A stretch of 64,000 bases of DNA from assembly GCF_002938425.1 (NCBI RefSeq), contig NZ_POQU01000001.1, positions 1-64,000 of the forward strand, in the 5' to 3' direction. The stretch's first letter is position 1; every line of letters begins with the position of its first letter. The notes below the pieces were generated by a model that was not told the origin of the DNA, searched no databases, and saw nothing but the letters and a program-made list of their open reading frames with translations. Source of the stretch: Blastococcus atacamensis. Its GTDB lineage: Bacteria; Actinomycetota; Actinomycetes; Mycobacteriales; Geodermatophilaceae. A program made the translations under genes and the position numbers. Shown here piece after piece: positions 21,080 through 26,698 of this stretch.

Positions 21080-21331
21080 GTGAACGCCCCCGACGACCCC
21101 ACCCCCGACACCGCGATGGCCTCGGACGCGGACGCCGGCTGGCTCGGCGGCCACCTCGGCCCCGGCGACCTGGCCCCGGACGAGGAGCGGCTGCTCGCCG
21201 CGCTGGAGCGCGACGCCCGGTCGGGGAGGCCGTCGCTGGAGGCCACGACCGCCGTCGTCCCGGCGCCGCAGGGCGCCGGACCGCCGGACGACGGGCTGAC
21301 CCCGACGTTCACCGCCCCCGGGGCCGACTGA
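21080..21331 (+). CDS. Small acidic hypothetical protein
   Basis: An 83-residue protein, rich in Asp, Ala, Gly and Pro, with one likely helix (LAPDEERLLAALERDAR). No domain is recognised. GTG 21080 is preferred to GTG 21065 because GAGGA stands 8 bases upstream. It starts only 22 bp after the SDR gene on the same strand and ends before the convergent M20 peptidase gene. Coding status rests on codon use and position only. Confidence 0.5.
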   Translation: MNAPDDPTPDTAMASDADAGWLGGHLGPGDLAPDEERLLAALERDARSGRPSLEATTAVVPAPQGAGPPDDGLTPTFTAPGAD

Positions 21332-22516: not shown

Positions 22517-24880
22517 TCAGCGCTCCGCGCGGTGCAGCCGGACGGCGACGAGGGCGACGTCGTCCTCCGCGCCGTCGGGCAGCACCCGCCGGATGAGCCG
22601 GTCGCACAACCGCTCGACCGGTAGATCGCGCAGGTGGGCGAGCGCCTCCCCGAGGAGCTCGATGCCGTCGTCGAACACCTGGTCGCGGCGCTCGACGAGC
22701 CCGTCGGTGTAGAGCAGCAACGTCGAGTCCCGCTCGATCTCGACCTCGTGGTCGGCGCGCGGCACGCTCGGGGCGACGCCGAGGAGCAGGCCCGGGCGAC
22801 CGGAGTCCAGCAGCCGCTGCCGACCGTCGGGGGCGACGACGAGCGGGGGCAGGTGCCCGGCGTTCGCCCAGCGCAAGCGGGTGACCCCGCGGGCGCGCTC
22901 GTCGGCGGTCTGGTCCAGCCGGCCGACCAGGACGGTGGCCAGGGCGCCGAGCCCCAGTCCCTCGATGGTGGCGTCCAGCCGGGAGAGCACGCGGGCGGGG
23001 CCCTCCGCGTTGTCGTAGGCGATGCCGCGCAGCAAGCCGCGCAGCTGGCCCATGGTGGCGGCGGCCTGGGTGTCGTGCCCGACGACGTCGCCGATCACCA
23101 GCATCGTGGAGCCGTCGGGTTGTTCGAACACGTCGTACCAGTCGCCGCCGACCTGGGCCTCGCGCGTGGCCGGCACGTAGCGCACGCCGACCTCCAGGTG
23201 CGCGCGCTCCGGCGGATCGGACAGCAGGCTGCGCTGCAGCGTCTCGGCGGCCCGCACGATGCTGCGCGAGCGGGCGTACAGCGCCTCGAGCAGGTGGGTG
23301 CGCAGCTCGGTGGCCTCGGTGATCTCCTGCGCCGTCCAGGACTCCGAGCGCCCCCGGACGGTCTCCCGCCAGCGGTCGAAGGACTTGCGCGGGCTGAGCC
23401 GGACCTCGTCCCCCTCGCGTTCGGCGATCGCCTTGTTGTGCGGGTCGCCGCCCCAGTCGATGTGCCGCACGGCCTCGCCGCGGAACCAGAGCACGTACTG
23501 CCCCTCGGGCAGGGGCAGGACCAGCGCGCCGCAGGCCAGCTCGGTCGGAGCGGCCAGATGCGGTGCGTCGGTGGCCAGGGCGTCGGTGGTGACGACGTCG
23601 TTCCCACAGCCCGCCGCCCATGCCGCGATGCCGTCGGCGAGGGCGGGGGGCAGGTCGGCACCGGCGGTGCCGCGGTGCCGCTGCAGGTTCACCACGACGC
23701 CGTCGGCGTCCAGCACGTCGAGCAGGTTGGGCCGGCCGAGCAGGGTCTCGCTGAGCATCCGGTCCTCGTCGAGGGTGGCGGCGGTGAGCCACGCCAGGTT
23801 GGACCGCACCCGCAGGGCGCGCTGGATCTCGTCCTGGGACGCGCGGTCGATCAGGCGCACCGACAGCGTCGAGCCGAGGAATTCCGCCGCCGCGCGCGTC
23901 GCGTAGGGCGGGGCGTGCGGGCCGCTGTAGTGGTGGCAGGCGATGAGCCCCCAGAGCTTGTCGTCGCGCAGCAGCGAAATCGACATCGAGGCGCGCACGC
24001 CCATGTTCTTCAGGTACTCGACGTGGATGGGCGAGACGCTGCGCAGGGTCGAGAACGTGAGGTCCAGCGGCCGGCCGGTGACGGGGTGGTCGGCCGGGCT
24101 GATCGGGACCGGGTCGTAGTCGACGTCGGAGATCAGCCGGATCCAGTTCTTCTCGTACAGCGCCCGCGCCTGGGCCGGGATGTCCGAGGCGGGATAGTGC
24201 AGACCGAGGAAGGGGTTGAGGTCCTCCCGCTTCGCCTCCGCGACGACCTCGCCGTTGTACTCGGTGTCGTAGCGGTAGACCATCACGCGGTCGAAGCCGG
24301 TGAGGGAGCGCACGGCCTGCGCGGTGATGTCGTAGAGCTGCGGCAGCGACGAGGCGCGGTCGAGGTCGGCCACCGTGCCGCGCACCGCCTGGTAGGTGTT
24401 CGGGAACGAGAAGGGCCGCGGTCCGCGTGCCGGCTCCAGCTCCACGACGACGCTGGACAGCGGCCCGGCGCCGGTCGCCACCAGGCCGTCACCCGCGTCC
24501 GCACTGCCCTGCTCGACCAGCGCTCGGTGCAGCAGGGCGTCCACCGGGACGGGGCCCCCGTCGACGTCGAGCGTGATCTCGACCGGGTTGCGCTCGCGGA
24601 GGTCGCCGAACGCGCTCGCCGAGCGGATCACCGCACCGGCCGCGGCTTCGCCCAGCACCTCGGCGAGCGGACGCCCGATCGCGTCCCGCCACGCCATCCC
24701 GGTGAGGTCGCCCAGGTTCTCCGACACCTGCTGGACGATCCAGTCGAGGTCGCGCACGGTGATCAGGACCCCGCGCGGCTGGGTGCTGCCGGGGATGTGG
24801 ATCGGTTCCCGCTCGCAGTTGGACAGGTCTACGGGGTCGCCGGGGGCGAGAAAGTCGATCGTCGCGTCCGCGCCGGTCAC
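22517..24880 (-). CDS. bphP: Bacteriophytochrome with PP2C/SpoIIE phosphatase output
   Basis: A 787-residue red/far-red photoreceptor. Order: PAS domain with the chromophore Cys in LSNCEREPIHIPGS (about residue 22), GAF domain with the PASDIPAQARALY motif and the His in SPIHVEYLKNMG, PHY domain with the tongue motifs WGG and PRKSF, then a helical linker and a PPM/SpoIIE phosphatase. The phosphatase keeps its metal acids in GGDWYDVF, VIGDVVGHD, LYTDGLVE and EDDVALVAV, so it should be active. There is no histidine kinase domain. One oddity is STQPRG where most phytochromes have SIQPHG. GTG start overlaps the bphO stop (GTGA), so translation is coupled to biliverdin supply. Confidence 0.93.
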   Translation of the reverse strand: MTGADATIDFLAPGDPVDLSNCEREPIHIPGSTQPRGVLITVRDLDWIVQQVSENLGDLTGMAWRDAIGRPLAEVLGEAAAGAVIRSASAFGDLRERNPVEITLDVDGGPVPVDALLHRALVEQGSADAGDGLVATGAGPLSSVVVELEPARGPRPFSFPNTYQAVRGTVADLDRASSLPQLYDITAQAVRSLTGFDRVMVYRYDTEYNGEVVAEAKREDLNPFLGLHYPASDIPAQARALYEKNWIRLISDVDYDPVPISPADHPVTGRPLDLTFSTLRSVSPIHVEYLKNMGVRASMSISLLRDDKLWGLIACHHYSGPHAPPYATRAAAEFLGSTLSVRLIDRASQDEIQRALRVRSNLAWLTAATLDEDRMLSETLLGRPNLLDVLDADGVVVNLQRHRGTAGADLPPALADGIAAWAAGCGNDVVTTDALATDAPHLAAPTELACGALVLPLPEGQYVLWFRGEAVRHIDWGGDPHNKAIAEREGDEVRLSPRKSFDRWRETVRGRSESWTAQEITEATELRTHLLEALYARSRSIVRAAETLQRSLLSDPPERAHLEVGVRYVPATREAQVGGDWYDVFEQPDGSTMLVIGDVVGHDTQAAATMGQLRGLLRGIAYDNAEGPARVLSRLDATIEGLGLGALATVLVGRLDQTADERARGVTRLRWANAGHLPPLVVAPDGRQRLLDSGRPGLLLGVAPSVPRADHEVEIERDSTLLLYTDGLVERRDQVFDDGIELLGEALAHLRDLPVERLCDRLIRRVLPDGAEDDVALVAVRLHRAER

Positions 24881-25515
24881 GCGCGGACCTGCTCGGGCCG
24901 CGCGGCCGGTGCGCACCACAGCGCCAGTGCGCGGAAGGTGTCCCGCGCGGCGGACACGATGCGGTCGATGTCGCCGCCGGCGGTCACGTGAGCCCGGGTG
25001 GTCCGGCGGAAGGCGGCCCACATCGCGCCGGTCTCCGCGCCGTAGGGGGAGAAGGCGCGGATCCGCACGCCGGAGAGGGCGGGGAGCGTCGCCAGGTGCC
25101 GGTCGATGAACGCGCCGCCCAGGGTGGATCCCTCCAGCACGTACAGCCGGCCGAGCGCCTCGTCGGTGCCAGGGATCGCCGGCAGCCGCGGGGTGCCGGC
25201 CATCCGGTCGGCGTCCAGGGCGCGCAGGTCGGCGGCGAACAGCTCCGCGCGGCGTCGGCGGGACCAGTCGACGGCGGCCGCGTCGTCGGGGCAGCCGGCC
25301 GCCCAGTCGTCGAGCCCCTGCTCCGCCGCGATCCAGAAGCCGTGCATCAGCGTCAGCGCGGAGGTCAGCCGGTCGCGGTCCAGGCGCGCGTCGAGGAGGT
25401 CCAGCGTGCGCTCGACCGCCTCGTGCTCGGCGGCCGTTCCCGTTCGCAGCAGGCGCAGGACGTCGTCGCGGTCGCTGCGGTCGTCCTGGTGGTGGAAGTC
25501 GTCATCCGCAGCCAT
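24877..25515 (-). CDS. bphO: Biliverdin-producing heme oxygenase (BphO)
   Basis: A 212-residue heme oxygenase that opens heme to biliverdin, the phytochrome chromophore, releasing iron and CO. The proximal heme ligand is His31 in TAAEHEAVERTLDL, and the distal helix is LYVLEGSTLGGAFIDRHL with the conserved Gly residues. Length and low similarity to secreted or eukaryotic types fit the bacterial BphO group. The stop codon shares four bases with the GTG of bphP, so chromophore enzyme and receptor are made together. It starts 29 bp downstream of the pruC stop on the same strand. Confidence 0.93.
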   Translation of the reverse strand: MAADDDFHHQDDRSDRDDVLRLLRTGTAAEHEAVERTLDLLDARLDRDRLTSALTLMHGFWIAAEQGLDDWAAGCPDDAAAVDWSRRRRAELFAADLRALDADRMAGTPRLPAIPGTDEALGRLYVLEGSTLGGAFIDRHLATLPALSGVRIRAFSPYGAETGAMWAAFRRTTRAHVTAGGDIDRIVSAARDTFRALALWCAPAARPEQVRA

Positions 25516-25543: not shown

Positions 25544-26698
25544 TCAGGTGTGGTCGAGCCGGGGAAGGTGCGCCGCACGCAGTCCGGTGTGCAGCAGCAG
25601 CCGGTCGTCCCCGTCGGCGAGGTCCAGGCCGGTGAGCGCGGCGATCCGGCCGAGGCGGTAGTACAGCGTCTGCCGGTGGATCCGCAGGACCTCTGCCGTG
25701 CGGACCGCGCTGCCCGCGCAGTCGAGGTAGGTCTCGGCCGTCCCGGCGAGCACCGGGTCGGCCAGCAGGGGCAGCACCGCCGGGTCCGGCCCGGCGAGCT
25801 CGGTGACCGGGCGCCAGGCGCCGAGCTCGGCCCAGTGGGCGACGGGCGAGAAGCGATCGACCGCCGCGGCCACCCGTGCCGCGGCACGGGCCTCCCGCCA
25901 CTGCTCGGCCAGCTCGCCGGTGCCCCGGCGCACGGCCGAGACGCCCGCGGTGCTGCCGGGCCGGAGGGACCGCAGCGAGGCCGCGGCCAGAGCTCCGGCC
26001 GGGCGGAGGTCGGTCGTCGAGGGCAGCGGGACGAGGACGGCCACGGGGCCGTCGTCCACGAGGGTGGCGACCGCGCCGGCGGCCGGGAGCTGCCAGTCGA
26101 CGGACAGCTCATCCGCCGGGCAGAGCGCCACGAGCACCTGGGCGCCGTCCTCGGTCAGCCGGTCGGCCAGTCGGCGACCGGCCTGGGCCCGGGCCGCGGG
26201 GCGGCCGGTGAGGGCGTCGGCGAGAAGCCGGCCCAGGTCGTCGGGTGGCCGGCCGGCCAGCAGCCGTCCGGCGCGGGCGGCGAGGTCCATCGCGCGGGCC
26301 AGTGCGGGGTCGGCGTCGTCGTCGGGGTCGATCCGCCCGCCGTCGAGCAGCCACAGGTAGCCCCGGGTGCCGCCCTCGTGCCGCACCGGCAGCACCAGGC
26401 GGGTGAGGATGCCGGCCTCCGGGTCCGCCGGCGTGCGCAACGGCCGGGTCGCCGAGGCGATGCCGAAGTCCTCGAACCAGCGCCGGGTCTCCAGCGCCGA
26501 TCCGCAGGTGAGGATCGACCGGGTCCGGACGGCGTCCATCGGGTCCGCGCCGCTGTCGTCGTGGGCGCAGAAGGCGAGCAGCGTGAAGGCCGAGTCCTCG
26601 AGCGTGGCGGGGGCGGCCAGCACCCGCGACACCTCGTCGACGAGTTCCTGCAGGTCGTCCCGCACGTCGTCCTCCCCACTCCGGGCGCTTGGTGCCAT
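25544..26698 (-). CDS. pruC: PucR-family transcriptional regulator of proline use (PruC-like)
   Basis: A 384-residue regulator with an N-terminal sensory part, a GGDEF-like middle region of the CdaR/PucR group (about residues 160-290) and a C-terminal PucR helix-turn-helix: CAGSAVRTAEVLRIHRQTLYYRLGRIAALTGLDL. It is divergent from pruB-pruA, the same arrangement as mycobacterial pruC, which activates the proline genes. I therefore infer a proline- or P5C-responsive activator; the family link is seen, the ligand is not. A 24-bp palindrome lies 5 bp before its ATG. The downstream bphO-bphP genes on the same strand may be partly read through from this promoter. Confidence 0.88.
   Translation of the reverse strand: MAPSARSGEDDVRDDLQELVDEVSRVLAAPATLEDSAFTLLAFCAHDDSGADPMDAVRTRSILTCGSALETRRWFEDFGIASATRPLRTPADPEAGILTRLVLPVRHEGGTRGYLWLLDGGRIDPDDDADPALARAMDLAARAGRLLAGRPPDDLGRLLADALTGRPAARAQAGRRLADRLTEDGAQVLVALCPADELSVDWQLPAAGAVATLVDDGPVAVLVPLPSTTDLRPAGALAAASLRSLRPGSTAGVSAVRRGTGELAEQWREARAAARVAAAVDRFSPVAHWAELGAWRPVTELAGPDPAVLPLLADPVLAGTAETYLDCAGSAVRTAEVLRIHRQTLYYRLGRIAALTGLDLADGDDRLLLHTGLRAAHLPRLDHT

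Follow-up and report, generated by a model that had tools for sequence, protein, structure and literature searches.

Conflicting trees for the sensor and phosphatase halves of a bacteriophytochrome, and a predicted red-light partner switch, in Blastococcus atacamensis

The bacteriophytochrome encoded by bphP in the soil actinobacterium Blastococcus atacamensis (BphP1) joins a PAS-GAF-PHY sensor to a SpoIIE/PP2C phosphatase, where a kinase would be usual, and the trees obtained for these two halves conflict. This conflict is the new finding of our analysis and, judging from the sequences, the sensor and the phosphatase of BphP1 differ in ancestry, the best reading being that in the Geodermatophilaceae the effector of this protein was replaced by another phosphatase of the cell. 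The explanation that we favor as a whole, and that we consider fairly probable, is that of a red-light-gated phosphatase, with an effector swapped in this family, that would feed an anti-sigma partner switch; we infer light control of BphP1, as well as its sign, the substrate and the sigma factor concerned. Red-light control of a stress-type partner switch through a phytochrome-phosphatase is apparently uncharacterised in the papers searched, and many actinobacteria, including mycobacteria, have such a protein. Our search, which was limited to the open-access literature, turned up no functional work on phytochrome-SpoIIE proteins, and red-light sensing in mycobacteria was not encountered in it.

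The bphO-bphP locus and its products

The stretch of DNA analyzed here (the window) comprises 64,000 nucleotides, positions 1 to 64,000 of the forward strand of contig NZ_POQU01000001.1, from the RefSeq assembly GCF_002938425.1 of B. atacamensis (Geodermatophilaceae), a genome of 3.9 Mb in 163 contigs that is 99.99% complete. The bphO and bphP genes (Table 1) lie where the original prediction had placed them and overlap by 4 bases, as they do in 12/12 Blastococcus genomes compared, an arrangement that fits translational coupling without proving it. Their synteny is equally constant, with bphO found immediately 5' of bphP in the same 12 congeners and in all 10 named loci of the BphP1 clade. BphO matches the Heme_oxygenase family (PF01126) above the cut-off, and bphO was the sole haem oxygenase gene detected in the genome when the family model and bphO's own sequence were used as queries, although strongly divergent haem oxygenases could escape such a search, because the model scores bphO itself barely above the cut-off. 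Near the operon no sigma-70-type promoters or terminators were found. On the strand that bears bphO, a PucR-type regulator gene (window 25544-26698, minus strand) lies 28 bases upstream of it; this regulator gene is divergent from a gene for proline dehydrogenase, and in the window species it may be cotranscribed with bphOP. Downstream of bphP, a small conserved gene (window 21080-21331, plus strand) is present in 12/12 congeners, encodes 72-91 amino acids in relatives, and has no Pfam match.

Table 1. Features of the bphO-bphP locus (window coordinates; residues are those of BphP1)
Feature	Position	Strand	Evidence or remark
bphP (bphP1), PAS-GAF-PHY-SpoIIE bacteriophytochrome phosphatase, 787 aa	22517-24880	minus	GTG start
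bphO, haem oxygenase, 212 aa	24877-25515	minus	ATG start; Pfam Heme_oxygenase 3.4e-7; probable biliverdin source
PAS_2 domain, residues 22-120	24521..24817	minus	Pfam 2.4e-17
GAF domain, residues 179-337	23870..24346	minus	Pfam 2.9e-16
PHY domain, residues 372-537	23270..23767	minus	Pfam 3.2e-41
SpoIIE/PP2C phosphatase domain, GHD type	22520..23248	minus	Pfam PF07228 5.5e-41; fold match to RsbU domain of Rv1364c; tree position
Cys22 codon, predicted biliverdin attachment site	24815..24817	minus	Invariant in alignment; aligns with the SaBphP1 Cys
STQPRG motif, residues 32-37	24770..24787	minus	QPRG clade-wide; T33 private to the species
PASDIP motif, residues 230-235	24176..24193	minus	Conserved
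PRKSF (PRxSF) tongue motif, residues 497-501	23378..23392	minus	Conserved
Continuous linker helix from PHY to phosphatase, residues 517-552	23225..23332	minus	AlphaFold model; heptad-like periodicity; fixed spacing
AETLQRSLL motif, residues 545-553, inferred swap junction	23222..23248	minus	Similarity crossover
D580 codon (GGDWYD), predicted metal ligand	23141..23143	minus	Invariant
D598 codon (GDVVGHD), predicted metal ligand	23087..23089	minus	Invariant
D603 codon, D of GHD	23072..23074	minus	Gly in other phytochrome-linked SpoIIE domains with readable motif
D726 codon (TDG), predicted metal ligand	22703..22705	minus	Invariant
D773-D774 codons (EDDVA), predicted metal ligand	22559..22564	minus	Invariant in one alignment, nearly so in another

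With its PAS-GAF-PHY order, N-terminal Cys, DIP and PRxSF motifs, BphP1 has the sequence marks of a bacteriophytochrome, and its sensor has a fold match to solved members of this group, such as SaBphP1 (1.2e-42). The SpoIIE domain with its metal-binding aspartates (D580, D598, D726 and D773/D774) places the output among the SpoIIE/PPM (PP2C) phosphatases. These results agree with the original prediction, in which the chromophore Cys, PASDIP and PRxSF were said to be kept and all the metal acids to be present, and the three sensor motifs are invariant or nearly so in relatives. The predicted lack of a histidine kinase was also confirmed, as Pfam identifies no such domain in BphP1; the NCBIfam equivalog model for kinase-type BphP (NF041576) scores only 323 bits where the cut-off is 1040, with a match limited to residues 15-532 and hence to the sensor, and BphP1 is therefore not a kinase-type BphP. 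Whether a phytochrome rests in the Pr or the Pfr form is a question for which no sequence criteria were found in PMC12362586.

The change from SIQPHG to STQPRG pointed out earlier is real, but it is not a notable one, given that QPRG occurs in 36 of the 66 relatives with a readable motif and that only the Ile-to-Thr replacement (T33) is unique to the window species; the motif was consequently rejected as a functional lesion. T33, which takes the place of a conserved Ile/Val, could nonetheless be read as a sign that BphP1 is no longer a photoreceptor, and persists as an apo-protein or as a redox or temperature sensor. We regard this as very unlikely, in that Cys22, PASDIP, PRxSF and the pocket residues are all retained, and that bphP is accompanied by a coupled haem oxygenase gene in every relative of the clade.

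The PAS-GAF-PHY-SpoIIE architecture is widespread in Actinobacteria, and neither isolated nor unusual. Full-length relatives occur in Geodermatophilaceae, Mycobacteriaceae, Cellulomonadaceae, Promicromonosporaceae, Georgenia, Nocardioidaceae, Kineosporiaceae and Frankiaceae, and among 396 genomes drawn evenly over the phylum three, the window's own included, gave matches with E below 1e-90. Moreover, the class is already in print, as SpoIIE/PPM phosphatases appear among the bacteriophytochrome effectors in Fig 2 of PMC9587094 (2022). Those proteins resemble BphP1 in combining a PAS-GAF-PHY sensor with a SpoIIE output; they are, however, listed in a tree without functional data, and the phosphatase of BphP1 comes from another clade than that of the other actinobacterial phytochrome-phosphatases. 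The exceptional status initially given to a phosphatase output directed at an anti-sigma switch thus did not hold, while a phosphatase output that plausibly drives such a switch is supported by the domains, the residues, the AlphaFold model, and the STAS and HATPase genes that accompany sister proteins. A more distant likeness is to HltA of Synechococcus, a GAF-PP2C phosphatase required for high-light tolerance in this cyanobacterium (PMC9430166), which shares with BphP1 a GAF sensor domain and a SpoIIE phosphatase, but which has a single GAF, lacks PHY, and is not a phytochrome.

Different histories of sensor and phosphatase

In the sensor tree, for which kinase phytochromes, cyanobacterial ones among them, served as the root, the Mycobacteriaceae BphP-SpoIIE proteins form the sister group (99/94) of the 22 BphP1 proteins, and both groups are nested in a larger clade (43 rows, 100/100) of phytochrome-phosphatases from actinobacteria. 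The phosphatase tree, in contrast, places the BphP1 domain among the cell's own PAS/GAF-SpoIIE proteins, in a clade (GHD) whose members carry the motif GDVxGHD as opposed to GDVxGHG; the non-phytochrome phosphatases sampled in these trees are those of one genome, plus eight others, and the inner branches of the broad GHD family are poorly resolved. A constraint that placed every phytochrome-linked phosphatase domain in a single clade was rejected, with a difference of 75.8 log units (AU p = 0.0001), and was rejected again when the longest branches were left out and outside sequences were added (65.3 log units, p 0.0007), although these p-values are somewhat optimistic in that the group was put to the test after the conflict had become visible in the motifs and in a first tree. 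The size of the likelihood differences, together with a crossover in similarity along the protein, is stronger evidence for the conflict than the p-values. This crossover falls at residues 545-553, within a shared AE.LQRSLL motif, where the closest similarity of BphP1 shifts from the mycobacterial phytochrome-phosphatases to the GHD-type phosphatases.

On these grounds, we propose that an actinobacterial phytochrome-phosphatase would have lost its original phosphatase in an ancestor of the Geodermatophilaceae, and that the domain taking its place would have come from the GHD-type PAS/GAF phosphatases of the cell itself, without a shift in the register of the linker. Alternatively, the Geodermatophilaceae might have gained a phytochrome sensor, alone or together with an effector, and linked it in a fresh fusion to a phosphatase that they already had, with no swap in place. 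All the trees show is that the two halves had different histories, which such a fusion would explain as well, and horizontal transfer of phytochromes has been argued for in PMC9587094; every other sampled member of the sensor's clade, however, already bears a SpoIIE domain, and the spacing between sensor and phosphatase is unchanged, as would be expected of a replacement at the junction motif. The nesting of the sensor and the constant spacing therefore favor replacement in place, and we hold a fresh fusion to be somewhat unlikely. It would in any case bear on the origin of BphP1 only, and is compatible with the mechanism proposed below.

The GHD motif itself deserves consideration, because the change from GDVxGHG to GDVVGHD lies near a metal-binding Asp and is clade-wide, and might indicate that this form of the phosphatase is catalytically altered or weak, with BphP1 serving as a binding adaptor in the manner of E. 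coli RssB. Such a role appears improbable to us, as the metal aspartates are all intact and conserved, and the GHD family is large and present in other families of the order. A defect of bphP1 itself was likewise rejected as the meaning of the motif, which is common to the whole clade and to a large paralog family.

Linker and proposed mechanism

PRxSF and GGDWYD are spaced 81 residues apart in 71 of 73 proteins, and this holds on either side of the swap; W515 is invariant. Hydrophobic residues between positions 517 and 552 recur with a heptad-like period (62 of 10,000 shuffles were equally strong), and the AlphaFold model of BphP1, a monomer, has a single helix over the same residues (pLDDT 83.7). 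Spacing and helix fit the proposal put forward in PMC12143880, according to which PPM phosphatases are governed by dimeric coiled-coil linkers that also allow sensors to be interchanged, and of which an effector swap with an unchanged linker would be a natural test. The phosphatase domain modelled alone (pLDDT 87.5) finds its best fold match in the RsbU domain of M. tuberculosis Rv1364c (PDB 3ke6; Z 29.0, 2.1 A over 221 residues), which is also the nearest solved phosphatase domain, at 29-30% identity. The two proteins differ in their sensors, PAS in Rv1364c (PMC12143880) and phytochrome in BphP1, and in that an RsbW domain is fused to Rv1364c but no anti-sigma domain to BphP1.

In the mechanism that we envisage, biliverdin made by BphO would attach to Cys22 of BphP1, as its conserved residues suggest, and red or far-red light would then switch the phytochrome, with movement of the PRxSF tongue and of the PHY domain. 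The coiled-coil-like helix would pass this change into a dimeric SpoIIE/PP2C phosphatase, which would dephosphorylate a STAS anti-sigma antagonist; the dephosphorylated antagonist would in turn capture an RsbW-like kinase, and a sigma factor of the SigB/F/G type would be freed. RsbU and RsbP of B. subtilis provide a precedent in terms of control, with a sensor and a SpoIIE/PPM phosphatase joined by a helix and the same predicted mode of regulation (the linker mechanism of PMC12143880), but they depend on the partner proteins RsbT and RsbQ, while in BphP1 the protein's own chromophore would do the switching. In the phytochrome-activated diguanylate cyclases (PadC; PMC9587094), a PAS-GAF-PHY sensor similarly drives an enzyme via a length-constrained coiled-coil linker; their output, however, is a GGDEF domain and their linkers come in several lengths, whereas one spacing is nearly universal in BphP1 and its relatives.

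Partner-switch genes and a second phytochrome-phosphatase

A search of the genome for STAS and anti-sigma partners, as suggested earlier, returned 19 SpoIIE, 9 STAS and 17 HATPase_c_2 domains above cut-off, along with one SigBFG-type sigma factor, so that partner-switching genes are indeed present. None of the STAS genes is on the window's contig, where a lone HATPase_c_2 match, below cut-off, lies at 103 kb, and no STAS, anti-sigma or sigma gene adjoins BphP1 in 12 Blastococcus neighborhoods and 10 further named loci, in keeping with the earlier claim that no anti-sigma partner is encoded nearby. The partner of BphP1 would therefore have to be a shared one, encoded in another part of the genome, and the substrate proposed for BphP1 rests on analogy. 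In this regard, STAS genes lie within two genes of a phytochrome-phosphatase in 16 of 42 loci outside the BphP1 clade, and are found in 17 of 158 near genes versus 5 of 355 far genes (Fisher 6e-6, an optimistic value, the loci being related), whereas in 10 of 10 named loci of the BphP1 clade bphO is present and STAS is absent. Phytochrome-SpoIIE genes are also borne by genomes of Mycobacterium and Mycolicibacterium, and in M. asiaticum STAS and HATPase genes follow directly downstream.

The sigma factor gene (C35:7540-8472), located on a contig other than the window's, overlaps an RsbW-like gene and adjoins a gene whose product combines SpoIIE, HATPase and STAS domains, and roughly 1.1 kb past the latter lies one more STAS gene; this region (L050:4541-9554) is likely the hub of the stress switch. 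It is possible that BphP1 is light-gated and that its substrate is not a STAS protein, with the GHD-type phosphatases acting on other Ser/Thr phosphoproteins, such as the targets of Hanks-type kinases. BphP1 and most GHD-type paralogs have no adjoining partner-switch gene, and SpoIIE domains far outnumber STAS domains, an imbalance (19 to 9) that counts against our main explanation in terms of specificity. Three GHD-type phosphatases of the genome, however, are linked to such genes, being fused to HATPase (C144), beside STAS (C117) and beside HATPase (C162), and the sister phytochrome-phosphatases that carry the older domain often adjoin STAS genes; we thus consider a different class of substrate rather unlikely. 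The location of sister proteins, among them the one described next, beside STAS and HATPase genes, and the likeness to the fold of Rv1364c, support a role of BphP1 in partner switching.

A second phytochrome-SpoIIE protein, BphP2 (C100:23619-25808), is 41-44% identical to BphP1, and its locus (C100:23619-26690) includes a STAS gene 9 bases upstream, followed by a divergent HATPase_c_2 gene for an RsbW-like ATPase, an arrangement kept in most Blastococcus genomes. We predict this locus to be a compact red-light partner switch. No SigB/F-type promoter pattern was found upstream of its STAS gene, nor upstream of bphO. Because a single haem oxygenase was detected, bphO may supply both BphP1 and BphP2. 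BphP2, the single haem oxygenase and the different ancestry of the two halves of BphP1 were all absent from the original prediction.

In the Geodermatophilaceae, the exchange of the phosphatase of BphP1 at the helix-end motif, with the exact spacing kept, might have re-routed red light from a dedicated STAS/anti-sigma pair to a shared, multi-sensor phosphatase network, with BphP2 keeping the dedicated switch and both proteins possibly using the biliverdin of BphO, a scenario for and against which we would give even chances. With two phytochrome-phosphatases in one cell, a dedicated pathway could be set directly against a shared one. In two congeners the protein is split into two ORFs (G001:C5) or only partly matched (G005:C7), so that BphP2 may be decaying in some species; full-length BphP2 was not seen in a third (G007).
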